From: Bacteroidales bacterium
Lineage (GTDB): Bacteria > Bacteroidota > Bacteroidia > Bacteroidales > Paludibacteraceae
Reading direction: 5' to 3'
Assembly: GCA_018066005.1 (NCBI GenBank)
Contig: JAGHSG010000080.1
Location: 1 to 38,094, forward strand
Length of the DNA stretch: 38,094 nt
The notes under the pieces were generated by a model that saw only the letters and a program-made list of their open reading frames with translations, was not told where the DNA came from and made no database searches. The translations under genes were made by a program, and so were the position numbers. This document shows, piece by piece, positions 4,842 to 32,046 of the stretch (the first letter of the stretch is position 1; each line of letters opens with the position of its first letter).

Positions 4842-7800
4842 TTATTTTACATGTTGTCCAACAGCGTTGTATAGTACACCATTTCTCAGGATATATACTT
4901 TGTCATCCATAATGAACTTAAATACACCTTCGGCATCGACATTAAGTGCCTCCACTACAGGAATGAGTGTAGGAGTGGAACCGCCACCCACTAATCTGAG
5001 TCGTGGAGCATTGGCTTTCGTTTCTGCACTGGCTTGTATATAGCAGTGGAACGGCAGAATTTCCGGGTGGTCGGTCAGCACAAACTCGGTGTGGTCATCA
5101 TTCAGCACGTACGCGTCGTATGGGTAAACGGGAACAACCGAGTTATTAGCCACATAGTGATAAGTGGGTTTCGTGCCATCTGTTGGCCAACTGCCATGAT
5201 CAACCGTAGCATCTTCAAAACCAAGTACTTCAGTAGAACCGGTCATACCGTATGTGATGTAAGTGTTTTTGAAATACCCGTCACTTTGTGTGCTGGTAAA
5301 TTCAAGGATATACGGAGTATTGGCTTGTGGTTTTTCATTAATCGTCATCTCCCAGCGTTGTCTAAATTCAGTTCCGATAACTGTAGCCTTTTCTTCATGC
5401 TTTAGTTCTTCCAGAACGAAGTAACCGGCTCTGACTGTCCATTTGTCGCCATCATGTTGCCGTATAGCAGGATAGATGTCATACATGTTATGGTTTTTAG
5501 GATCTTCCACTTGGATAGACGTTGCGGTGAAAGGTAGAGCAAAGTCTTCCCAAACATCCAATTGTTTTACTTGACGGATATGTTTAACAGAGGTCTTTAC
5601 TTCTACATTCTCTTCGTTATTGGCTTGACCGCCATCGTAGATAATGAGGTTGTTCACACCGCAAACAGGTATCTCCTTGGTCTCACCTGAATTGATGGTG
5701 AATGTTTCTGTCGATAATTCGTGACAGAAGACGTTTTGATTAGCAGTAATCTTGATTTGGTCAAATGCAGCAGATTCGCCTCCTGTAGCATGCAAGCAGA
5801 TAATAATGTCTTGTGGTTGAGAAATTGTATATCCCGTCAAGGCTTTAGATTCCTTAAACGGCCATGTATCAGGACCATGATTTCCATCAGAAACGCTTTG
5901 ACTATATTTTGCGTAATGTACACCATGATAAATCAAATCATTACTTGCTCCTGTTTCATCTTTATAGTAGATAGACAAAGTTTGAGTTAAATCTGAATTA
6001 GAAGCAATCCACATTGAGAATGAATAAGTTGCAGCGGCTGGAAGTTTGGTCATATAATACATAGCATGATTAGTACATTTCTTATAGTCGTAGTATCCAG
6101 CCTCATGATATCCTGTGTAATAATCATGATATGCTCCACAACTACCGCCGTGCGGTATTTCATAAGGAAGTTGATCTTCGGAAGTTACCGTGTTATATTC
6201 TATATAACCATCCTCGCATTGGATAATATACGTATCTACGCACTCAACAGGAGCATAAATGGCTTTCAATTTGAGGTCCTGAGCCGGCATCGTGAAGGTC
6301 AGTGGGTTGTCGTGCTCGTGTCCTGTAATAGGTGCAGTACCGGATACTTGCTTCCAATGACTGAAGTTATAATCTAACTTATAGTCTTTATCCGAAACAA
6401 ATGCTTCCAAAGTAACTTGACCACCAATAGGATAAGTACCACCACCAGTGACTTCGCTACCAGGCTTACCAAACTCTGTAGTTACTGTATAAATTTGATC
6501 AAATGTAGCTGTCCAAGTGATAGCTTGGGTTTGAGCATTGGCGTAGATAGTGCGCGTGATCTCACGATTACCGTCAATCCATTGAACGAAGCCATAACCC
6601 TCATCAGGCGTAGCCGTCAAGACAACGGGAGTATTAGCTGTCAAATCGCCTCCTGTGTAAGGTTCATCATTAACGGTAGCAGCAATCGTACCATTGGGGC
6701 AAGTGCCTAAGGTGATGTGATAAGTAACAATATCTTCCTCCGAGTTAGCATAGACGGTGTAGTTGTCTGTAGCCGGCATATCGAAGGTATAAGAAGAGGT
6801 TGTTGCCAACTCTTCACCTCCGGCATCTTCCGTCCAATTAGTGAACTTATAGCCCTGATCAGCAGTAGCGGTAACAGTTACGCTCTCGCCTTCGGCATAT
6901 TGACCTGCACCGGTAACAGAAGCGATGTGCTCATCATGATTTACTACGAGCGTATATACACGTACGAAGTTGGCAGTGATGGTCTCGGTGGCATTTACGA
7001 TGCGAGCGTAAGTTGCTTCCGTAGAAACCTCTACGTCATTGACCGTCCAATTAACGAAGCGATAATTGTCTTCCGGAGTAGCAGTAAGAGTTACTTCTGT
7101 GCCCTTTTCTAAGCCGGTAGTTGTTGCAGGGTAGGTTTTTACCGTACCGCTCTCGTCAGGAGATACCACAACTGTCAAATCTACAGGAGGAACAATCGGT
7201 TCTTGAGATGTTACATTCGTTGCTTGGATTTCGGAGAAGAGAACAGTGCCAGTCAAACTGCTCATTCCCCACCCATCTTTGGAATAGTTCATCCAAATTT
7301 CAAAGCCGGATGTTGCAGTGGCAGCGGTAGCGTCTTCTACATAGAAATATTCCCAAGCGCCATTGGTTGAAGGCAGTTTACATACGATTCCATGTTCACC
7401 ACCGACATTGAATTCCATATAGATATTATCATCCGCCATGTACCAGAACGCATAACCGGTAGCTTTGGCATTAGCCGAGTAATTAGCATCGGTTGGAACG
7501 GTATATGCGCTATAATCACTTGTGGACTGGAAGTTAATAGCGTATTGTAGAACATTATGTTGGAATGAGCCTGTATTATCAGCAATAGAAGTAATCGTTA
7601 TGCGGTCTAGGTTACTATGTCTGTCAATATGCGAACCAACGTTGGTACTTGTACCGGTAGCAATCAGATTGTGTACCTCGTCAAAGACGAAGTGTGCAAC
7701 AACGGCAACGTCCTTTGTTGGCATGGGGAATTTCAGCGGATTTGCTTTGGCTTGTTGATCGGTCAATTCCACATCTGTTGAAGACCAATGATCAAAGCGA

Positions 7801-10800
7801 TACTGATTGTTATCTACGATAGCAGTTACTTGAGCTTCACGACCTTCGCCCACTTGTTGAGTAGTTGGATCTACATGACCCCAAGACGATTGTTCATCAG
7901 CTACAGAAGCGGTCAGGGTGTGTTTAGTAACCTCTGTATCAAAGTAAGCGGTAAGAGTTACATTTTTAGCAGGCATCGGATAGTTAAACGATGCATCAGT
8001 AGATACAACAGTTTCACCTTCCTTCCAAGCAACAAATTCATAGCCTGATTTAGCCGTAACGTTGATAGGAGCCAAAGCACCTTTTGTATATGCACCTGCA
8101 CCGGTTGCATTTTCTCCCTTTTCGGGGTCATTAATTTCCAGTTTTAGTTCATAGCGAGGAGTTGTAGTACATAAGACATCGTTTGTAGTTGAAATATCAA
8201 TATAGTCAAAACGAGCATCATTCTGAGCCCATAAACCGATAATATAATTACCGGGGTCTAAAGTTTTATTATATGTAGCCGTTGTAAATGGTTTTTGCCA
8301 ACCACTAGAAGCAAATTTGTCACTAGATATACGTAAATAATTTTTACCTGTGTTGGTCACTTGAATATCTCCACTTTCTTGTGTTTCTTTATAAATCCTA
8401 ATCTTGGAATAAGTATCTTGCGAGTTGGCATAACGAATCTGCATAGTTAGAGCAGCTTGTTCATCACCGGAAATAGATAACGGTATATATATTTCACTGC
8501 CAGCATCTTCATGTACAGTCAACATATATCCACTACCGGAATATTCTCCACGCTCATTATTATTTCCAAATGTAGCCGTTTTTGGACCTGCAACGCCTGA
8601 ATTAACGATAGTAAGTTTGTCGTAAGGAATCATAGCGTCTTCACATTCCAATTCCTTATGTTTAGTACACTCGACTATCGGTGCCACTGCAAATTGTGCG
8701 TAGTAAGTTACATTGCCTGTAGGAATGGTCGATTCAGTAATTTGATTACCACCAGTTGCAGCATCAAACCAACCTGTCATGTTATAGTTATCACGTGTTG
8801 CCTCGGGTAATGTACCTATAGCATCACCGGCATAAATGTCTTTACTTGCTGTAGCACAAGTACCGCCGTTGGTAGTAGCATCAAAAGTGATGGTATATTG
8901 TGGAATGGCTGCAAAGTTAGCAACAATAGTGGTTGCTTTATTTGGCATTGTGTACGTATAATTGGCTTCAGTAGAAACTGCTTCTCCTGCAACCGTCCAA
9001 TTGACAAAGCGGCAATGCTCATTAGGTGTAGCGGTTAATGAAACCTCTTCATCTTTGGCATATTTACCGGTACCTGTAGCAGTACCCATGTTGTCGTCAT
9101 TCACACTAACGGTTAAGTCGTATTTAGGAACTTCCACCTTTACATTTGTGGTAATATTGAGGTTGCTATTTACCGGCAGTGTGCAAGGATTTTGGGTATA
9201 GGTGTTCTTACCGTCAGAGAAGTTGTCAAAGTCGTAACCGGTGGCTTTTTCCCAAGTAAAGATAACTTGTGTTCCTTCGGGCACTTCGTCACCGCTATTG
9301 ATAGTAGCACCATCCTTAATCTGTGCCGAAGTAGAACCTTGACTTGGTGGGGTGAATGTTACGGTGTGGTTAATGAATTTCTCTGTAATCTCTGTGGCAC
9401 GGATTTCAGTAATATAGAATGTGCCACTATTTACGGATGTTACCGTTTGACCACTTTGACCAGGCCAGTTTTTTGCTTCATCTGTACCATTGACATAGAT
9501 ACGGATGTGGTCACGATTCCAACCATTAGCAGCATTATTCGCTACATACATATATTTCCATGTGTTGTTGGTGCTTGGCAGGTACGTTTCAATTGATCAC
9601 CGTTATTATCATTGTAATCAAAGCAGAATGCCAGAGTAAAGTCTCCTTCTGTCTTATACCAGAAACCAAAACCGGTAGCGCCAGCAGAAGACGAAGAATT
9701 ATATGCTGCATCTTTGCCAATTTCGTAACCATTCCAGTTATTATTCATATTACTAAATGTGAACTTCAGCACCTTATGACCAGTGAAGTATGAATCATCC
9801 TCTTTTGAGCAACTCATAGTAGCACTACCACCTTGCTTGCTCATATAAGATTCATTGTCAGGAGTTACAATCAAAGCATCTACTTTGGGTTTTTCTGCCC
9901 ACTTGGTGTAGAGGGTGCAGGCTTCATCTTTTACCCAGTTGCCGTAAGCATCGGTATAATTCTCCACACTTGTGCAGAGAGTACCATCGGCATTCATGAC
10001 CTTGGTAGTGCAATCTTGTTCAGCATAGAAACCTTCTACTATATAATTATCGCGCGTGGGCGCAGAGAAGTTACTAGTTGAATTGGAGTTATAGGTAACT
10101 TGGACACTACCAGCAACAGAACCACCATTCTTGTCCAGCTTGAGGTTGTAGGTCTTTGCTGTCCATTGAGCCGTATAAGTAGTGGCAGCAGCGGGCATAG
10201 TAGCAGCAACTGCCGGATTCCAACCAGCAAAGGTATAACCGGTCTTCTCGTAAACAGGAGCTTTCAAACTTGTGCCGAAATCAACATCACCGGCAGCCGT
10301 TCCTGCCGTTTTGAGAGTAGCACCATCAATACCTGCCCAAGTGAGGGTGTAGTGGTTTATACTCCACTGAGCCGTGTAAGTTACATCGTTGTCAGGCATA
10401 GTGGCTGCAACAGTAGGACTCCAACCTGTAAACTCATAACCTGTCTTGGAAACTGTAGGAGCAACAAGAGTAGTTCCATAATTAACAAGCCCTGCTTTCG
10501 TATAGTCACCTGTCAAGGTAGCGCCTTCAATATCCGCCCATGTGAGGTTGTGTTGGTTGATAGCGCAAGTTGCAGAGATAGTAATATCTTCTGTCAAAAT
10601 CAATGGTGAACCCGATGTAAAGTCTTTACCATTAACTTGGAATGAAGTTGCAGAATATCCTTGCGCGGGCGTGAAAGTTATTGTAAGGATACATGTGTGC
10701 GCGAGGTCAGCACTAACGGAAGTCATATTTTGTGCAGAACCGGCAACGTCTGTGTATGCAACATTGATTGTTCCGTTAGCAACTTCACCAAGCGTTACCT

Positions 10801-13800
10801 CGTGGGTCAGCATGCCATTCGATTTGTTATAGCCGTAATAACTTGGCGAACTACTCTCGGTAGTAGTTGGAACTAAGGTGATATCGGTAGTTATATTCTC
10901 CTTAATGAACGACAAGCAGTTGTTGATGTCATGACTGCCAGGACGAACAGCATAGATACTATTTTTGTCAGTCCACGCCGTATTATCAGCCACATGGAAA
11001 GCGTTGTAGTCGGTAAACTCGGCAGTTGTGCAACTATACAGGTTTTGTGTGCCGGGAACTTTGGTCATGTCAATCTTGTTAGTCCAGCACTTATGACCTA
11101 TACGGAAATAAACGTTGCTCCATTGTGTAGTTGAGTTATCAAAGTACACCTTATTTCCTGCTGCTGTTGAATAACTGCTTTCGGGCAAGAAGGTAGAAGC
11201 ACAGATAATGGGATTATTTGTTTTGTTTACGCCTGTATTGGGCACATATACAATGATGTAGTAACGGTCATTGCCATTATAAAATACAGCACTGTTTTCG
11301 CCAACACCCCACGTGTCGTCCGTATTCATATCCGTGATATCGGTGCAATGGAAACCGGGGGAATTATATGTATAACCATACCATGTTCCATTTTTCTGAA
11401 TCTTAAATTGACGTTTTTGATCACTCTTGTAGGTGTACCAATACCAATAGGTGCCATCATCGCTTGGCGTCATTTCATTGGCAGCCCAATCGCTTGTCCA
11501 TGCTTCGTGATAGTAGTACGCTTGACTCCACTTGGCATAAATGGTTGTGTTGGCAGCAATCGGTGCTGCAAAGTCAAACGGAGTAGTGCAGGCATCATTA
11601 GCAAACCAGCCCACGAAAGTGAATCCATCAGCAGAAGGGTCTGCTGGTTGTGAGATAGTGCCGTTAGGAGAGGTGTAAAGTTCGTAATTATTGCCATGAC
11701 CCATGAGGTTGACGGTAATAGTTACGAATTCAGGATAATGCACAGTTAAGGTGGGATCGTTTCCCGCAAAATTAACGGTAAAAGTATAATCACCGGCAGC
11801 CGTAGTATGAACGCCGACATTCTTACTTCCGTCCAAATACCAACCTGTATTATCATGATACATTATCATGTTGTCATCCTTAGCGCCATGATTCGTATTG
11901 TTATCCCATATTTGGAACCAATAATTAGTATTAGCGGCTAAGTTCTGTACGGTCACACTAGCGACCTGTTCTGTGCTATGACCTGTTGCCTTAACAAAAT
12001 CATATTGAGTTTCCCAATTGTCTTTGAAGGTGCCTTTCATGTACCACACGGTAGAAAGGTCCTCTGTCCACTTAGCGTATAAGTCAATATTGTCTTCTAA
12101 CTCTGTGCCTGCTGTAACAGGATGCTCAAATTGCTCATCTGAGAACCAACCATCAAAGTTAAATCCTGCTTTCGATAATGTTGGAAGAGGATCGGGAAGA
12201 TTTGTTTGATCTTCTTCGTTTTCGGGACAAGTTGTACCGCCATCACAGTGATAAGTGATAGAATACCCCGTTGCCGGTGCTTCGGTGCAGAAGACATCGT
12301 CAGATGCGGTGATAGTAAAGTAGTCGTAATCGGTTGATTGATACTCTTTACCAATGGCTAAAATATACTTACCAGCAACTAAAGTTTCTAATGACTTTGT
12401 GTCTTCTTTCCAAGACGGATATACCGTGAAAGATTGAGCTTTAAGTGCCTTATTATAAGTATCACCATTGTATTCAAAATGATCATCGCCAGACATGTTA
12501 GTTGCCCATAAATCGAATTTTGAAGTTAAATTCCACGTCTGACTTGTTTTTGAACGAACTGTAAGAGAGCATGTCGTTGCTTCGCTTATTTCGAATGCAT
12601 AGCATAAACGTTGACTATCACTATTTCCTGCACCTATTGCAATGTAATTGGGACTTGCCGTGGCAGGAGTTGCCCCAGCATCCGTTTCGGTTTCGTAGGC
12701 AGTTAATGGTTCAACTTTTCCACTTATTTTTAAATTCAATTCTTTTCCATCCTCTGCTTCCCATGTTAGGGTGTTGGTACAAACTTTGGTGGATTTCTTG
12801 AAAGTAGCAGTATAGTTCTTCGCAGCATTCATTGTAAAGGTGAAGGGGTTAGATGTTTCCGTGCTGGAACCGGTCCATTTGTCGAATGCGTAACCTGTAT
12901 TTGGAGTTGCGGTAATAGTTACCTTTGTGCCTTCAGGAATAGCGGAGTCATCCGTTTGGTTACTTTCGGCAGAACCATGTCCGTCATTGCTCAACGTCAA
13001 AGCATACGTTTCAAAACAGAAGACATCGTCAGAGGCCTCAATGGTGAATTTGTCGAAATATACTGTCCACCAATGTTCTGAAGAATGAACTGCGACTACG
13101 TAATCATCTGCCGGTTGATTCGTAAATGTGCATTCTACATCGTTCCAAGTTTGATCAGATGCTCCGACGGTTTTTACTTGTTCACTTACCTTTTTGTAAG
13201 ATTTACCTTCATATGTAAAAGTTTGAGAACCTGATTGTTTTGTAGAATATAAAATGATTGTTGCGGATTTATTGTTATAAAATCCTCCTGCTCTAATCGT
13301 GAATGCAAGATCTGCTGCTTTTGAAGTAGAAAAATGATAATAGATACATTTTGAATCGGCACTAGCGTTTTGCTTCATACTGATAAAATGACCATCTGAT
13401 GCACTACTAACCATAGAACTAGCGTCTTTACCATCGCAATGCTTATCTTTTATATACTCACATGTTTCTACTCCTGTCGGACTAATCATTTTTGATTCAT
13501 CCTCTGCTTCCCAAGTTAGGGTTTTGGTACATGTAGGAGTGGGGTCGTCACCACCACCTTTGTAAGTGAAAGTAATTTGACCCGCACCACATTTTTCGTC
13601 ACCAGTAGATTTGAACTGAGCACGAACATAATAGTCACCCGCAGCAGGCACTACAATTTCTAGCGTTTCCGTCCATGTCTTTTCTGGATTGGAAGTTGTA
13701 TAGGTCAATGGATGAGTTGCGTAACTCTTATTCCATGTGTTTTGATCAACTACCACGATAGGAGTATATAATTTTTTATCCTCTTTTACCATACAAGCAA

Positions 13801-14119
13801 TTTCTACTTGATAGGTACCTTTTTGGAAAGTGTATTTTTGACGAGATTGAGCAACTTCAATGGCGTCATCGCCTTTAAAAAGACAATAACCACTGCTATG
13901 CTTCAAATTGCTTTCTCCCACACCACTCCATTCAAAGTCACCATCCAAAATAACATTGTTTGAGGATGTACCTGATAATGACGTTCCGCTGCCGTAGCTA
14001 TTCCAATCAAAAGACAAAGAGGAAGGGATGTTTTCTCCCCACAGGTTAGTTACGCCGCCGAAGAGAAGCACTAAAAAGAGTGCGCGGCGGAAAAAAGTTG
14101 TTGTAAATGTTTTTTTCAT
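4842..14119 (-). CDS. ~3.1-kaa secreted multi-domain adhesin-like protein (InlB/Flg_new repeats and CBM-like modules), split into two ORFs by a frameshift at ~9587
   Basis: ORFs 9542-14119 and 4842-9551 overlap; other frame reads LKTYLPSTNNTWKYMYVANN across the junction, parallel to CKLPSTNGAWEYFYVED within the second ORF; signal peptide at 14119; many (F/Y)xFxxWT...A.YTM/PMPA repeats; C-terminus KVYILRNGVLYNAVGQHVK. Confidence 0.8.
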
Positions 14120-14485: not shown

Positions 14486-14646
14486 CTCGCGTTCGGCAAC
14501 AAATCGCAAATGGCTGATACCACTCCGTTTAATCAGCAAGCGACTTGTGCCTCCGCTCTCCCCACCACGCAAGCGTGTCGGGGACCCCGAAGGGCAGAAC
14601 GCAATTGGTTAATCGGTGAGTCGGTGAACCGGTGAGTTGGGGAAAT

Positions 14647-14735
14647 GGTGTTTGCGCAAGCGCAATTGATGTAGCGCTGACGCGCTTGTTGTTTGCCTAA
14701 CGGCAATTGTTGTTCCGCCGATGGTGGATTGATGT
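14647..14735. repeat. 89-bp array of small hairpins, copy 1
   Basis: 87/89 identical to 16116-16204 by eye; TTGCGC-AA-GCGCAA, TAGCGC..GCGC, GCC..GGC, TCCGCC-GAT-GGTGGA separated by TTGATG/TTGTTG. Confidence 0.85.
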
Positions 14736-16062: not shown

Positions 16063-16115
16063 AGATATAAACTATTAGTTTATGGGGAATCGGTGAATTG
16101 GTGAGGCGGTGAGGC

Positions 16116-16204
16116 GGTGTTTGCGCAAGCGCAATTGATGTAGCGCTGACGCGCTTGTTGTTTGCCTGACGGCAATTGTTGTTCCGCCGATGGCGGATTG
16201 ATGT
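16116..16204. repeat. 89-bp array of small hairpins, copy 2
   Basis: Near-identical to 14647-14735; the two differences keep the hairpins. Confidence 0.85.
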
Positions 16205-16737: not shown

Positions 16738-16793
16738 TTGTAGCAGCGGTGAGGCGGTGAATCGGTGAGGCGGTGAATCGGGGAGTTGGTTAA

Positions 16794-18057
16794 TTACCAG
16801 ATGAGGCGGTAGGCGACGACGTCGTGGGAGGGAATGGTGACTTTACGCGGGTGGGTGGTGTCCGCTTCGTCCTGATGCGACCAGAGGTTACGTACCTGAT
16901 ACGTGTGCCACGAAGTTTCTAAAGAACGGCGGGACAGGTTGTCGTACATCTGGAAAGAACGGAAGTCAAGGTTGATGGTACGTTCCTCCAACGAACGGTT
17001 GAGGACACAGAAAGCCCAGTCACCGTTGGCTAAGGGTTTGAGCCAATACTCCAATCCTGCTTCTACGCGGTGACGCAAGCCTTGTATGCCCAACGAATCC
17101 TGGTCAACAGCGATAAGTTCCTTATTAAGCAGAATGGCAGCCGTCTCTTTAGACATAGAGCGTACGTCATTACCCACGATAAGCGGGGCCGCCATCATGC
17201 ACCATAGCGTGAATTGTGCGCGGTCCTCACTCAGACTCATACCATTACCTACTTCAAGCATGTCGGGGTCGTTCCAGTGGTTAGGTCCGGCATACTTACG
17301 GAGTTTCTCGTTGGAGTCCACAATAGTCATGATACCGAGTGACTGCCATCCGCCGTGGTCGAGGGTGCAGTCGAAGCAACACGTTATGTCGCCCGTCGTG
17401 CGCCAGCAATGCCCAATAGGTGCCGCCCATTCGTAGGCTTTGTTGTTCCCATTCGCAAAGGGAGAAGAGGATGTCACGACCGGACTGACGCAAAGCCTTA
17501 GCCATAAGTGAATAGGCCTCTTTGGCATTGCGTGAATCGGTGTTGCACCAGTCGTACTTGAGGTAATCAATACCCCATGAGGCATAGGTAATGGCATCTT
17601 GGTATTCGTGTCCCTGGCTGCCCGGACGTCCTCCACAAGTTTCAGAACCGGCATCCGAATAGATTCCTATCTTGAGTCCTTTGGAGTGAACATAGTCGGC
17701 AAGGGCTTTTATGCCGGACGGGAAACGTGTGGGGTCTTCGTGGATGAAGCCGAGGTTATCGCGTTCGCCGTGCCAGCAGTCATCAAGGTTAAGGTATATA
17801 TATCCGGCATCACGCAAACCCGAACTGACCATCGCATCGGCGACGGTGCGGATAAGTTCTTCGTTGATGTCGCAACCGAATTTATTCCACGAGTTCCAAC
17901 CCATCGGCGGGGTGGCGGCTAAAGCGGGTTTGTCCGGAGACACATGATCGACTTGTACCGGTTGAGGCAGTTGAGCAAAAGCACAAGGTGCGAGGGCAAA
18001 GAGAACGTTTAGCGTGTAGCGTTTAACGTTTAGCGTGTAGCGTTTAGAGATTAGCAT
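16794..18057 (-). CDS. GH27 alpha-galactosidase, interrupted by a frameshift near 17448-17453
   Basis: [48 protein letters not shown]...[11 protein letters not shown]...LFSLCEW then, in another frame, [21 protein letters not shown]...[16 protein letters not shown]...[12 protein letters not shown]. Confidence 0.88.
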
Positions 18058-18180: not shown

Positions 18181-19881
18181 TTAACGTACCATGAGTTTGG
18201 TCGTATTGCCGTTGTAGCGGATGATATAGACACCGGGGGAGAAGGGGAATTGGTTAATCGGTGAATCGGTGAATCGGTGAACCGGTTGGCCGGTGAGGGT
18301 GAAGACCTCAATGATGGACCGGTTAATCGGAGAATCGGTGAATTGGTGAATCGTTTCTAAGCCAGTGGGGTCGGTGGAGTTAGTACGCAGTTGGAGGCAG
18401 ACAAGTGTGACAGAGGTGGCCACCTCGGATTTAATCATCATACTGCTGACGTTGGTGATTCCCGTGAGGTCAGCCACTAATGAATCGACACCTGCTTCCG
18501 CTTTACCTACTTCGGCTGCATCGGAGTCGCCGTTGACATAGAGCGTGACAGAGCCTGTGGTGGCAGCAGCGAAACGCAGATAGAGGTTATTGTATGCGGT
18601 CCAGTCATCCGCCAGTTCCCAACCGCAGGCAGCCCATTCGCCATTGAAAGTGACGGTGTTGGTAGCTTTGTCAAAAGATGAGCTCCAGAGTGTAGTAGCG
18701 TCACCTAATTGGAGAGCTGTTCCTTCGGGACAGTCACCTGCGGGCGTGGGAGGCGTGGGGGGCGTGGGAGGTGTAGGCGTGATGGTGTCGCCACAGAAGA
18801 CCTTAGCGGCAGCGGTGATGACAATTTGGTCAAAAGCTACCCATCCTTCGCCGAAGAGCCCTAAGATATAGTCGCCTTCTTCCAAGGTCTGGTTAGCGAT
18901 GTTCCTGCTACTGAAAGGTTCATCATTGCCACTGCCTAAATCGTGGAAAGAGAGTTTGCCATAGGAGTTATTATCATAGGTGATGGTACCGTCTTGTGAC
19001 GCAGCCCCTTTTTTGTATATATTCATCCATCTGTTTCCTCCGTTGGTACACCACACATCGAAGGCGTAAGTGGATGCGGGCAGGTTGACTGCATAATAAG
19101 TTTCTCCCCGCGAGTCTTTATGGTCGATATATCCGGTACCATGTGAGCCGGCATAGTAATGGTCAGACGTGATGTACTGCATATAGCCGGGAGTTCCTTC
19201 TCCTCCGGTAACGGTTACATAGTCTGTTTCACATTGTAATGTTTTGGTGTTGGTACATGTGGAGTCTTCGGGCGTTGGAGGCGTTGGAGGCGTTGGAGGA
19301 GTAGGGGCGTCGCCACCTTGTAGCGTAAATTCAGCAGTTTTGAAACCTACTTTTTCGTTATTGCCAAACCGTCCTTGGAAATAATAATCTCCTGCTGCGG
19401 CTACGACAACGGTATAGGTAACAGGCACTTCGGTGCCTTTGTTAGCATCGTTGAAAGAAACCTGATTTAGGTCTTTGGTTGCCTGATAAGTGCCGATGAA
19501 GAAATCGGGTGTATTGACAGAAGGACCATTCTCATTGGCGATGAAGTTCATCACGATGGTGTAGGTACCGGCTTGGAAAGCGTGTGTTTCTTTAGCGCGG
19601 AAATAGGGATTTTCCTTCACGGACGTATAACCGGAAACGATGTCGTTCTTGACATTGTATCTGTTTTCGCTCCAATAGAAATTTCCATTAGGAGCGTCCC
19701 ACCATCCTTCGGTGATGACGGTGTATTTACCATCATTACTCAAGTGTGGTACGCCATTGTCGGCAGTTGTACCTGAATAGGTAAAATCATACGTAAAATC
19801 TGCTGCTTGAGCAGTGTTTACAGCGCCTAAGAACACTACTGCGAGTGCTAAGCGGAAGAGAGAAGAAAGTGTTTTTTTCAT
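18181..19881 (-). CDS. Secreted multi-domain carbohydrate-binding-like protein with type A T9SS C-terminal domain
   Basis: Signal peptide; Pro/Thr linkers (PTPPTPPTPPTP); CBM-like modules; C-terminus EVFTLTGQPV...FSPGVYIIRYNGNTTKLMVR. Confidence 0.78.
   Translation of the reverse strand: MKKTLSSLFRLALAVVFLGAVNTAQAADFTYDFTYSGTTADNGVPHLSNDGKYTVITEGWWDAPNGNFYWSENRYNVKNDIVSGYTSVKENPYFRAKETHAFQAGTYTIVMNFIANENGPSVNTPDFFIGTYQATKDLNQVSFNDANKGTEVPVTYTVVVAAAGDYYFQGRFGNNEKVGFKTAEFTLQGGDAPTPPTPPTPPTPEDSTCTNTKTLQCETDYVTVTGGEGTPGYMQYITSDHYYAGSHGTGYIDHKDSRGETYYAVNLPASTYAFDVWCTNGGNRWMNIYKKGAASQDGTITYDNNSYGKLSFHDLGSGNDEPFSSRNIANQTLEEGDYILGLFGEGWVAFDQIVITAAAKVFCGDTITPTPPTPPTPPTPAGDCPEGTALQLGDATTLWSSSFDKATNTVTFNGEWAACGWELADDWTAYNNLYLRFAAATTGSVTLYVNGDSDAAEVGKAEAGVDSLVADLTGITNVSSMMIKSEVATSVTLVCLQLRTNSTDPTGLETIHQFTDSPINRSIIEVFTLTGQPVHRFTDSPINQFPFSPGVYIIRYNGNTTKLMVR
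18247..18353. repeat. 9-bp repeat family (GGTGAATCG-type) inside the coding sequence
   Basis: 18247-18294 and 18318-18353; encodes HQFTDSPIN / HRFTDSPINQF in the T9SS domain. Confidence 0.9.
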
Positions 19882-20020: not shown

Positions 20021-21175
20021 TTATTTTAGGGAGGGCATTTGGTCGCGGCTGATTACATAAGGTTGTTCCCAAGCGTTGTTCCACCATTCGATGGGAGCGT
20101 GCTCGTGGGGAGTGGTGGTGTCGGTGAACCAATACGAATTAGGTGATGCCGATTTGGTTCGTTTGCTATCATACCACGGCATGAAGTACGCCCACTTGGC
20201 ACCTGCATTCCATTGGTCTTCTATAGTGCCACCATTGCCGAACTCGGACAGGGTGAGCATTTTATTGGGATAAATCATTTGGTCGTAACCGAAATAGTTG
20301 TAGAAACTGGGTGCTTCTTTGTTATAGATGTCACGTCCGATTATATCGACATACTTGTCGCCCGGATACCAAGCAAAGTCAGACCCTTGTGTGGTCCAAA
20401 CCCAGATGAGGTTATTGAGCCCCTTGGTGTTGACGAAGTAGTCCCACATGAATTGCCACAGTTGCACTTCGGTGGCGGCGTCTCCGCCTTTTCCCCACCA
20501 GAACCACTGTCCGGCAGCCTCATGATAGGGACGCCAGAGGATAGGTATGTGTCGATCTCTGAACCCTTGCAAGAACTCGGCTACGCGGTCAAGATCCTGC
20601 ATGAAAATCTTGTTTTCCCACGTACCGGATATGAGGGCATTGGAAGCCTTAAAAGAGGTCTCGTTAGGTTTATACGTACTGTTGGATGAAGTGGTAGTAG
20701 TGGCTTGTGATTTAGGAACAATATGGTGCCACATGCCCATAATGATACCGTTGTTTGCCCACCAATCCTCATAGATGGCGTAGGAAACATACACTTTCTT
20801 TGCCCAATCATCGGTCAAGGTAGATTGAATCATATCGAAGCAGGTCATAGCGGGGTACTTGCCGGTATGGTATTTGACCCATTCGGCTTCGTTGATGTTC
20901 CAGTTAACATTAGCCATCGCTCCGGACAGAACTTTGCGTCCGTACGTTTTACGGAGGTAGGTATATAGTTTCAGCGCTTCCGGACTAGGGTTGGGCGTAC
21001 ACAACTCATCACACACATAGAGGGATGTGTCCTCGGTAGGTGTGGGAGGATCGGGAGGAGTAGGTCCCGGCGGCGGTGTCGGTTCAGTGCCACTTTCTTT
21101 CTTATCGCATCCGCTGAATAGCATTGCCGTACATATCATACAGCATGCCAGCACGTAACAGATAGATTTTGCCAT
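20021..21175 (-). CDS. GH26 beta-mannanase, lipoprotein
   Basis: Lipoprotein signal MAKSICYVLACCMICTAMLFSGC; Pro-rich linker; WRPYHEAAGQWFWWG and TLSEFG catalytic-region motifs. Confidence 0.88.
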   Translation of the reverse strand: MAKSICYVLACCMICTAMLFSGCDKKESGTEPTPPPGPTPPDPPTPTEDTSLYVCDELCTPNPSPEALKLYTYLRKTYGRKVLSGAMANVNWNINEAEWVKYHTGKYPAMTCFDMIQSTLTDDWAKKVYVSYAIYEDWWANNGIIMGMWHHIVPKSQATTTTSSNSTYKPNETSFKASNALISGTWENKIFMQDLDRVAEFLQGFRDRHIPILWRPYHEAAGQWFWWGKGGDAATEVQLWQFMWDYFVNTKGLNNLIWVWTTQGSDFAWYPGDKYVDIIGRDIYNKEAPSFYNYFGYDQMIYPNKMLTLSEFGNGGTIEDQWNAGAKWAYFMPWYDSKRTKSASPNSYWFTDTTTPHEHAPIEWWNNAWEQPYVISRDQMPSLK

Positions 21176-22610
21176 TGATTAGATATTTATTAAATGGTGA
21201 ATCGGTGAGTTGGTTAATCGGTGAATCGGTTATTTCGTCTAATGCGGAGGGTGTGGGAGGTACGTCGGTATAGACGGAGCATAGTTGGCTGTCTGCAGCC
21301 CAAGCGTTGTATATTTTCTGCCCCCAGTTGCAAGTTTGCCCTTTGGTAGATTGTGTGGCAGGGGTTCCGTTGTATTGGTCAGTCACCATGTCCAAATAGC
21401 CAACTCCGCCTCCGTTTCCCCACCATGACCATGAGAACCAACCGACATTGTTGGTCTTGCAAGTAGAGATGATAGCATCTTCATCCACATCGCCGTCGGA
21501 GTGATACCACCCAAATTCACCGATGCACAGGCACAGGTTTTGGTTCAAGACGTTCGTTATATTACTCTCTACCGTGCCGGGTTTGCCAGCCGAGCCGTAC
21601 ATGTGAATAGAGAAGATGATATTCTTGTCAGGGTCGGCATTGAATATATCCCAGCCGCTATTAGGTATAGAACCGGCATGTTGTCCCCATCCGTCTGCAT
21701 CGACCATGAGACAATGTTTAAGTCCTGCTTTTCGTATGGTAGAGACAGCGTTTTTGTAAGCATTTACCCATGCCGTGGTATTCCATTTGCCTCCCCATTC
21801 GTTGGCTATATTGATGATTGTTGTGTGCTCATGTCCTTTGAGTGTAGAAGCCATCTCCGTCCAGTAGGACACACATTTATTCAACGCATTAACATCGTCT
21901 GAGCCGGTAGCATCGTGCGCCTCAATGACCAAGACCATCTTGTTAGATTCGCAACATTGAATGATGGATGCCAATAATTGTGCAGGAATTTTGGAGTATT
22001 GCCCTCCTGTTCCAATGGCTATCCGCACGGCGTTGGCACCGCGTGAGCGCATCTGTGCTATTTGTTGTTCGTATCCCTTGCCGATATACCACGCGTATGC
22101 AAGATTAGTACCCCGCATGACAAAGGGGTGGTTTTTGGCATCTAATAGTTGTTTGCCACTAACTACAAATCCATGATCTCCAACAATAGGCGTGTCGCCT
22201 CCACCTCCACCGCCGGTGAGATAAGCCGAAGTGACGGTGAGTGAGCCGCTCTCGCAAGACAGAACTATTTTCTCGACCGAGTATTTACGCGAGGCATTGA
22301 GGTTGGCACTGACTTGTGTGGCTCCACTGCCGAATTCTATTTTGGTGTCGGGGTCGGTATCACCGGTATAATAGATCTGCATGTTACCCGGTTGGGCAGC
22401 GGATTGGAAGTGTACAACAACGGAGTTATAATCACTACAGTTCTTGCCGTCCAGCCACCATCCGGCTCCTCCCCAAGAGGAGAAGGTGATGGTTGAACCA
22501 CTGACGGACGTGGACCACATGTTGATTATTGACGATGTGGATAGTGAGTAGTCGGCACGTACTATGGTGACGGAGAGTAGGGATAGTAATATGATGAAGA
22601 AGCGAGGCAT
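21102..22610 (-). CDS. GH5 endo-beta-mannanase-like enzyme with N-terminal beta-sandwich domain
   Basis: MRGTNLAYAWY, GANAVRIAIG, IINIANEWGG, CIGEFGWYHSD, GWFSWSWWGN; N-terminal SSWGGAGWWLDGKNCSDYNSVVVHF domain; C-terminal NGKIYLLRAGMLYDMYGNAIQ motif. Confidence 0.85.
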   Translation of the reverse strand: MPRFFIILLSLLSVTIVRADYSLSTSSIINMWSTSVSGSTITFSSWGGAGWWLDGKNCSDYNSVVVHFQSAAQPGNMQIYYTGDTDPDTKIEFGSGATQVSANLNASRKYSVEKIVLSCESGSLTVTSAYLTGGGGGGDTPIVGDHGFVVSGKQLLDAKNHPFVMRGTNLAYAWYIGKGYEQQIAQMRSRGANAVRIAIGTGGQYSKIPAQLLASIIQCCESNKMVLVIEAHDATGSDDVNALNKCVSYWTEMASTLKGHEHTTIINIANEWGGKWNTTAWVNAYKNAVSTIRKAGLKHCLMVDADGWGQHAGSIPNSGWDIFNADPDKNIIFSIHMYGSAGKPGTVESNITNVLNQNLCLCIGEFGWYHSDGDVDEDAIISTCKTNNVGWFSWSWWGNGGGVGYLDMVTDQYNGTPATQSTKGQTCNWGQKIYNAWAADSQLCSVYTDVPPTPSALDEITDSPINQLTDSPFNKYLINGKIYLLRAGMLYDMYGNAIQRMR

Positions 22611-22612
22611 TT

Positions 22613-22653
22613 TGGTGAATTGGTGAATTGGTGAATTGGTGAGTTGGTGAATT
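22613..22653. repeat. 9-bp GGTGAATTG tandem repeat forming the GH5 / SGBP intercistronic spacer
   Basis: GGTGAATTGGTGAATTGGTGAATTGGTGAGTTGGTGAATT. Confidence 0.9.
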
Positions 22654-23926
22654 ATTTTGTGGGGTTGAGAAGGACGATACGGGGGTTATCTAAACAGATA
22701 TGGACATCATGTTTATTAGGCGCATCGCAGTTCTTACCGAACAGGATAACGTTGAATTTCTTGTATTTAGACATGTCGTCTAAGATTAAGTCGGCACGTC
22801 CATCGGTGGAGAAGGGACCTAATTTGTCATATTTGAAGTCGGTTAAAGGAATGGTGAATGTCTCCCATCCATCGGTTTTAAACTCTTTGACGGTCCATTC
22901 ATCGGTAGTGGCGTTACCGTCTACCAACCACGGAGCCCATTGTGCTTGTGGAGTTGTATTCGCTCCGTCATCTCCCAATGAGAATTGACCGGACAGGGGT
23001 TCGAACCAGAAGTGCAAAGGTTGGTCTGTCCACGTGAGTATATTGGCCTCGAAACGCAGGCCGTATTTGGTAATATCTTTATCTGCCTCCAAGAAGGGGG
23101 TACGAATCTCTTGGTATTGATCCCAATAGCATCCTGCCAAGTCCTCCTGGCTCCAGAACCACTCACCCACTTGTTCGCGTTTAATCAACAGATAAGCGCC
23201 ATCGCATCCGTTCTCATCGGTATAACGACCAATCTTCCACGGATTGCCGTAATAACCTTGGTTGAACGGTTCCTCTCCGTGATTAAAGTCAATGATGAGG
23301 TTGGTCTTATCGCGGAAGCGGAAAAGGGACTGACGGATACCGTATTTACTCTGTACGGTGATGGGACCCTCTTGGCTGCCTTGCGGAGCTACGCAGATGA
23401 GTTTATTGCCGTCAAAGGATACAATGTCTGCTTCGATAGAATCGTTCTCGGTTGCCCCTCTAAACCATACAGTGAGGGGTTCGTAGAAGAATGAGCCATT
23501 GATAACAACTTCTTGTCCGTCGGGTACATATTCACACTTGAGTGAGTTGAGACGCGGAGCAGGTATATACGTTTCGAAATCATAGGAAGCCGAATACCCG
23601 TCTGCGGTGGTTGCAATCAGTTTATAGGTGTGATTTTCGGAGAAAGGCACACTCAATATGATAGCGTGTGACGTTATGTAGGTTGGGTTCAGCGTAGCAG
23701 CGTCATCGTCAAATCGAACAGAATTGACGGCTTGCAGATTGCTACCAATTATTACTATTGTTTGCAATTTCTCTGCCGCATAGATGGCAGAGTCGGCTTG
23801 TTCGGGGTAGGGAGTGCGTATGTAGTCAATTACAGGCGGTTTACCATTTCCACCCGTTTCGTCTTTTTTACAAGCACTAAAGCATGCCACAAGGGCTACC
23901 AATACAATTAAAAACCTATATTTCAT
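22652..23926 (-). CDS. Surface glycan-binding lipoprotein with IPT/TIG domains (SGBP)
   Basis: Lipobox LVACFSAC; IPT/TIG-like repeats (IVIIGSNLQAVNSVRFDD, EVVINGSFFYEPLTVWF); directly downstream of SusD. Confidence 0.8.
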   Translation of the reverse strand: MKYRFLIVLVALVACFSACKKDETGGNGKPPVIDYIRTPYPEQADSAIYAAEKLQTIVIIGSNLQAVNSVRFDDDAATLNPTYITSHAIILSVPFSENHTYKLIATTADGYSASYDFETYIPAPRLNSLKCEYVPDGQEVVINGSFFYEPLTVWFRGATENDSIEADIVSFDGNKLICVAPQGSQEGPITVQSKYGIRQSLFRFRDKTNLIIDFNHGEEPFNQGYYGNPWKIGRYTDENGCDGAYLLIKREQVGEWFWSQEDLAGCYWDQYQEIRTPFLEADKDITKYGLRFEANILTWTDQPLHFWFEPLSGQFSLGDDGANTTPQAQWAPWLVDGNATTDEWTVKEFKTDGWETFTIPLTDFKYDKLGPFSTDGRADLILDDMSKYKKFNVILFGKNCDAPNKHDVHICLDNPRIVLLNPTK

Positions 23927-28860: not shown

Positions 28861-29829
28861 TTATTTCATCATAGTACCCAGAACGGAGTATTTAACGCCA
28901 CTCTTCATGATATACATAGCACCCTTGTCCATAACCTTGATTGCTTTAGCTTTGGCAGCCACTACATCATTCAGACCGGTAGCACTCTTGGTGTAGAACT
29001 TCGTGCTAATCAACTCAGATTCGCCATCGTAGGTATTCAAGATTACACCGGCAGCTTGGCTGTCTTCGCCAATTACCCATGTGTTACCGCCTTTCTTGGC
29101 GTAGTTGATAAGTTCTTTAACAAGGTATTTGTAATCGGAAGCACCGGTACCGTCTAACAAGTTACCAATTTCCTCTTGCGGATTGTACCAATCGTCCATG
29201 GCAACCAATTTAGCGATACCATAACCTAATTTCTTTTCAGCGCTTAAAACATTGATGCGGAATACGACAACGTCATTCTCGTTCAGAGCTTCGAGTTGGC
29301 TTTGGAAAATCTTAATTCCGTAGTCACCATTCTCAACACCGCCAACAATGGGTTGTACCTCAGTAGCGCCCGTGATATCATACGGATCAGCACCGCCTTC
29401 TACATAGCATTTTTTAACAGTGACGGTTCCCATCATTTCGGATTGGATGTACACTTTTTGAACGGCACTCTTCTTCTCCTTGTTCAGTTCAATACGGATT
29501 GTTCCGTTACCGGGTGTACCGATTTTTTGCTCATAGCCGGCACTTTGATCAGCAGTACCATACTCTACACTTACGGCAACTTTCCAATCAACGGGCTCAA
29601 TTTCAAGAACGACGGCATTGTAGTTGGTCCAAGGCTCTCCGCCAATCCACCAACCGGCGCCACCTTCCCACGCTGCGGGGAATGTAATGTTGTTACCACT
29701 GACTGTTACTCCTCCCCAATCGGTACCGCCGTTGGCTGAACCACATTTGCTCATGGGAAGATCCAAATTTTGAGCAAACATCATGGCACTCATCATAAGT
29801 GCGCAAACAAAAAAGAAACTTTTTTTCAT
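28861..29829 (-). CDS. Secreted protein with N-terminal CBM-like beta-sandwich, first gene of the PUL transcript
   Basis: Signal peptide; WEGGAGWWIGGEPWTNYNAVVLEI shared with the GH5 N-terminal domain; C-terminal GAMYIMKSGVKYSVLGTMMK motif. Confidence 0.7.
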   Translation of the reverse strand: MKKSFFFVCALMMSAMMFAQNLDLPMSKCGSANGGTDWGGVTVSGNNITFPAAWEGGAGWWIGGEPWTNYNAVVLEIEPVDWKVAVSVEYGTADQSAGYEQKIGTPGNGTIRIELNKEKKSAVQKVYIQSEMMGTVTVKKCYVEGGADPYDITGATEVQPIVGGVENGDYGIKIFQSQLEALNENDVVVFRINVLSAEKKLGYGIAKLVAMDDWYNPQEEIGNLLDGTGASDYKYLVKELINYAKKGGNTWVIGEDSQAAGVILNTYDGESELISTKFYTKSATGLNDVVAAKAKAIKVMDKGAMYIMKSGVKYSVLGTMMK

Positions 29830-32005: not shown

Positions 32006-32046
32006 GTTCACCGATTCACCGATTCACCAGTTCACCGATTCACCAG
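32006..32046. repeat. 9-bp repeat (CCGATTCACC on plus) in the lipid kinase / dut spacer
   Basis: TTCACCGATTCACCGATTCACCAGTTCACCGATTCACCAG. Confidence 0.9.

Follow-up and report, generated by a model that had tools for sequence, protein, structure and literature searches.

A 74-bp same-strand overlap between GH5 and GH26 β-mannanase-like genes of an uncultured Bacteroidales bacterium, with a probable signal peptide overprinted on a C-terminal tail

The uncultured mannan-digesting Bacteroidales bacterium studied here possesses two adjacent β-mannanase-like genes on the minus strand of a 38,094-nucleotide stretch of DNA (contig JAGHSG010000080.1 of assembly GCA_018066005.1), the whole of which is designated as the window. 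The upstream gene (21102..22610) codes for a 502-residue protein with a GH5 domain (PF00150, E 1.9e-35), and the downstream gene (20021..21175) for a 384-residue protein with a GH26 domain (PF02156, E 3.6e-53), which is a probable lipoprotein. The catalytic domains align over their length with their best PDB matches, the β-mannanases 2whj and 1wky for GH5 (E about 1e-79) and the GH26 β-mannanase 6hf2 for GH26 (E 2e-93). Compared with known β-mannanases, the enzymes themselves are ordinary, and what is odd is confined to the junction between them. A surface glycan-binding protein (PF18329) is encoded in the same locus, and we take the neighbors to include a SusC/SusD pair and an AraC-type regulator, judging from their sequences. 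Elsewhere on the minus strand of the window, two genes that we presume from sequence to be GH27-like (16794-18057) and GH130-like (463-1634) each consist of two overlapping ORFs in different frames, and seem to reflect a frameshift, a pseudogene or an assembly error. In addition, a 10-bp overlap (9542-9551) joins two ORFs on the minus strand that are very long and rich in repeats, at 9542-14119 and 4842-9551; the latter, with no evident signal peptide, may continue the former after a frameshift.

GH5 and GH26 share 74 bp (21102..21175, minus strand), which are read on the same strand in two frames (phase 1) with no frameshift, the GH26 frame being shifted ahead by one base relative to that of GH5. 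The ATG of GH26 is formed inside the Asn-Gly codons of GH5 (AAT GGN), and after the lipobox cysteine GH26 runs on alone. The +2 frame of the overlap is not open and contains stops both in the window and in G053, a genome of the same genus that is the nearest relative with the GH5-GH26 pair. A first-pass annotation of this DNA had given the overlap length of 74 bp together with the coordinates and translations of both genes, all of which were exact.

The GH26 reading frame is limited upstream by a TAA (21179..21181, minus strand) two codons 5′ of the ATG, and in G053 by a stop about 14 codons before the ATG. From the other two ATGs within the overlap, at GH26 codons 13 and 18, only 10 and 5 residues would precede the lipobox cysteine, which is too short a distance, and any later start would deprive GH26 of a usable signal peptide. 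Given the in-frame stop upstream and the lack of a usable later start, the sequence shows that a secreted GH26 must begin inside GH5. The predicted signal peptide extends from Met1 to the lipobox Cys23 (21107..21175, minus strand), with the lipobox LFSGC at 21107..21121. We scored signal peptides by a simple rule of our own, and by this rule the lipoprotein signal peptide that had been proposed for GH26 held up: in both species, the protein displays a positive N-terminus (K3), an uncharged hydrophobic stretch (9-mer means 2.4-2.6) and a lipobox cysteine near residue 20, at residue 23. The N-termini read MAKS...LFSGC in the window and MDKF...LLNSC in G053, the asparagine before S-C in the latter being less typical. 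Four cysteines precede the lipobox in the GH26 signal peptide, while 13 of the 19 lipoprotein-like N-termini have none; these extra cysteines are as expected if the signal peptide was overprinted on a tail.

The locus of G053 is syntenic with that of the window, with the same gene order and 64-83% protein identity for most genes (67% for GH26 and 53% for AraC). Its overlap measures 65 bp (L002/L062), is also phase 1, and starts at the same Asn-Gly codon pair, and the lengths of the proteins in the window and G053 are 502 and 501 residues for GH5 and 384 and 386 residues for GH26. Within the overlap, the nucleotide difference is 32%. The lipobox cysteine codon of G053 starts one base after the GH5 stop, and at the position of this stop the window has CGG, with GH5 extending three residues further. 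The overlap is thus retained in an orthologous locus, where the first-pass annotation had proposed to look for it; that annotation had also named a GH26 start elsewhere in orthologues and a frame or assembly error as ways in which the overlap could be spurious, and comparison with G053 revealed neither. Among 178 genus genomes searched, a GH26 this close was present in no genome beyond the window's own and G053, and because only two species carry the overlap, its conservation rests on one comparison.

The two overlap sequences show 20 differences in 63 aligned bases, which fall on GH5 codon positions 1/2/3 as 10/2/8, compared with 777/476/1963 in the rest of the locus. The wobble base of GH26 corresponds to GH5 codon position 1, and the shift toward this position gave p = 0.014, from one comparison of 63 bases; an equal position-1 excess was reached in 0.2% of all comparison windows and in 1.1% of those with like divergence. 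In the overlap, the GH5 frame had a synonymous difference of 0.45, below every other GH5 window, and equally low values were also reached by windows in other genes. When synonymous codons were randomized with the residues fixed, a signal-peptide-like +1 frame arose in 8% of cases for the G053 tail and in 22% for the window tail, so that survival of the +1 signal peptide alone is weak evidence, and we rejected codon randomization as sole proof of selection. Taken together, the pattern of substitutions is compatible with coding in both frames, on statistically weak grounds (20 changes between two sequences).

The GH5 side of the overlap is a short C-terminal tail motif, KYLINGKIYLLRAGMLYDMYGNAIQ followed by RMR and the stop (21114..21188, minus strand), which was recognized with E 9.6e-12 by a profile (A1) that contains the GH5 tail sequence itself. 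The tail consensus is about 25 residues long and reads KxxxNGQxYIxRxGxxYNxxGxxVK-stop. Copies in the window are located at 4845-4919, 21114-21188 and 28864-28938 (minus strand), and the likeness of the GH5 tail to the C-termini of two other secreted proteins, which had been pointed out before, was borne out and extends to many more proteins genus-wide (loci L064-L093 and L096-L175 in other genomes). A profile of six tails gave 11-77 matches per genome at E <= 10 in 13 genus genomes. All 112 tail copies examined end 0-7 residues from the stop, and a signal-peptide-like start was found in 7 of the 8 tail proteins whose 5′ end lay in the DNA examined. At E <= 1e-5, the tail was not found in any of 118 further genomes from the order, with or without PorU, the type IX sortase; one genome of the same family has weak relatives of it at the ends of two proteins (KKIIDRNGIIYIEKDGMRYFLNGGKAE).

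Like the type A C-terminal sorting domain of the type IX system, the tail is C-terminal and belongs to proteins that bear signal peptides, in genomes that encode PorU; 40 of 41 genus genomes possess this sortase. However, the tail comprises about 25 residues and type A domains, which occur separately in the same genome, are longer. GH5 showed no match to type IX sorting-domain models (NCBIfam E <= 1, TIGR04183; Pfam E <= 0.01, PF18962), and an assignment of its tail as a type A domain was rejected on this ground. Moreover, the co-occurrence of tail and PorU across the order is uninformative, because the tail is absent from all 118 genomes regardless of PorU. Since GH5 is unmatched by these models, a type IX sorting role of the tail is something that we infer, and its recurrence at C-termini genus-wide together with the presence of PorU makes this role plausible. 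The motif can be regarded as a candidate export signal that has not been described previously. As for the earlier view that one DNA segment encodes two localization signals, two different terminal signals do share the segment, and the localization role of the GH5 tail is putative.

The +1 frame of these tails is of interest with regard to the origin of the overlap. In 14 genus genomes, a +1-frame ATG was present in 51 of the 112 tails, as opposed to 1 of 112 in the +2 frame, because an Asn-Gly pair written AAT GGN contains ATG in +1. The +1 frame was open past the stop in 17 tails and signal-peptide-like by the simple rule in 3, and it continued into a long ORF only in the two GH5 genes. One may speculate, with more doubt than confidence, that the genus has an undescribed sorting tail of ~25 residues whose +1 frame is a ready source of starts and hydrophobic stretches, the GH5-GH26 pair being one fixed case; if this reading of the tail is true, overprinting can supply a downstream gene with an export signal. 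A more distantly related GH5-GH26 pair occurs in four congeners, its genes overlapping by 4 bp in G009 and G141 and lying 12 bp apart in G022 and G030; in all four, GH26 carries a signal peptide of its own and GH5 has a different C-terminus. The long overlap is most simply regarded as derived given this short junction and separate signal peptide, and the 74/65-bp overlap looks like the derived state. In two congeners, the classic 4-bp overlap (ATGA) of the related GH5-GH26 pairs was observed at L006 and L055, around 1042-1084, where the GH5 C-terminus is longer and different.

On these sequence comparisons, we consider it very likely that the overlap is a genuine phase 1 overlap in which the GH5 tail was co-opted as the GH26 signal peptide and GH26 is initiated independently. 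Most likely, the tail, already fixed by its own function in GH5, was taken over in the +1 frame, and both the original signal peptide of GH26 and the spacer between the genes were lost. Translation of GH26 would then probably begin by independent initiation at its ATG, GH5 would be exported, probably by a type IX system recognizing the tail, and GH26 would be anchored as a lipoprotein.

Scepticism about so long an overlap is due, because a survey of 338 genomes found 0 genuine cases among 715 same-strand overlaps >60 bp (PMC2478687) and because the assembly seems to hold two frameshifted genes elsewhere, those for GH27 and GH130; the survey, published in 2008, proposed flagging same-strand overlaps over 60 bp (PMC2478687). 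The overlap would then be an artefact of assembly, frameshift or start calling, and GH26 would start downstream or be disrupted. The same overlap in G053, a separate genome, largely refutes such an error, the alignments of GH5 and GH26 with their orthologues extend to the protein termini, and no downstream start keeps the signal peptide, which makes an artefact highly improbable. Indeed, the marks by which the survey would recognize a genuine overlap, namely orthologue lengths, the lack of a usable later start and occurrence in a second species (PMC2478687), are all three found here. A genuine overlap could also have formed in the opposite order, with the GH26 signal peptide being older and the GH5 tail arising as GH5 extended into it. 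The commonest origin of long overlaps is described as the loss of an upstream stop codon (PMC10666635; PMC3887535), and GH5 of the window does extend three residues past the G053 stop position. However, the tail fits a genus-wide consensus that could hardly be obtained by reading through a signal peptide, and it is the GH26 signal peptide that is compositionally odd; we therefore regard this order of events as improbable.

The first-pass annotation had further proposed that the overlap couples the two mannanases translationally, in which case GH26 would be made mainly when ribosomes translate the GH5 end, by termination-reinitiation or by RNA opening. Coupling may have been ancestral, given the classic 4-bp overlap of the related pairs in G009 and G141, and upstream termination affects the downstream start at -50 nt in the coat-lysis overlap of phage MS2, as cited in PMC12548453. 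On the other hand, the efficiency of coupling peaks at -4 to +3 nt, with none at -25 nt in one reporter series (PMC12548453), and the stop-start spacings of -74 and -65 nt lie far outside this range for termination-reinitiation. Long overlaps are also said to lack coupling as a rule (PMC10666635). Around the GH26 start, the RNA folds no more strongly than shuffles and showed no unusual structure in either species (z +0.66 and +1.34), which does not support coupling via RNA unfolding, and this route was rejected. The proposed coupling was thus not borne out, and we consider it unlikely. Independent initiation of GH26 in A+T-rich sequence would be the default reading, the 20 bases before its ATG being 90% A+T in the window and 65% in G053.

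Phase 1 is favored among long overlaps of prokaryotes, and the GH5-GH26 overlap resembles the known long phase-1 unidirectional overlaps in lying on the same strand, in its +1 frame and in a start inside the upstream gene (PMC3887535, PMC10666635, PMC2542354). It differs from them in that it exceeds 60 bp, a class in which one survey found only errors (PMC2478687), yet is common to two species, and in that a probable targeting element is encoded in each of the two frames. Like the lysis gene of phage MS2 (-50 nt), GH26 has its start deep within the preceding gene and in a different frame; regulation through RNA structure was shown for the lysis gene, as far as it is cited in PMC12548453, and there is no sign of it for GH5-GH26. 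Among the papers covered, a literature search on bacterial signal peptides born by overprinting returned nothing relevant. The GH5-GH26 junction is a real case of a rare gene arrangement, and the overprinting part of our interpretation is well supported. As a conserved overlap of >60 bp, it provides a useful counter-example to the survey (PMC2478687) and illustrates one way in which a signal peptide could arise by overprinting, while the tail motif, which is common in the genus and escapes the sorting-domain models that were tried, offers a directly testable candidate export signal.

Just before the tail, the GH5 linker is encoded by an array of an 8-bp repeat (21179..21247, minus strand) as TDSPINQ-type repeats, and GH5 of G053 is without such an array. 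The repeat is CGGTGAAT and variants, and its arrays occur between genes and inside coding ends, where they encode TDSPINQ-like repeats; those in the window are at 14598-14650, 16075-16125, 16739-16799, 18227-18356, 21179-21247, 22597-22665 and 32011-32044. A 26-base, three-unit repeat probe had 129 matches in this genome and 0-6 in 40 relatives, which points to a species-level expansion of the repeat. At 18181-18369 (minus strand), an 8-bp array is inserted in frame within the type A sorting domain of a 566-residue protein.
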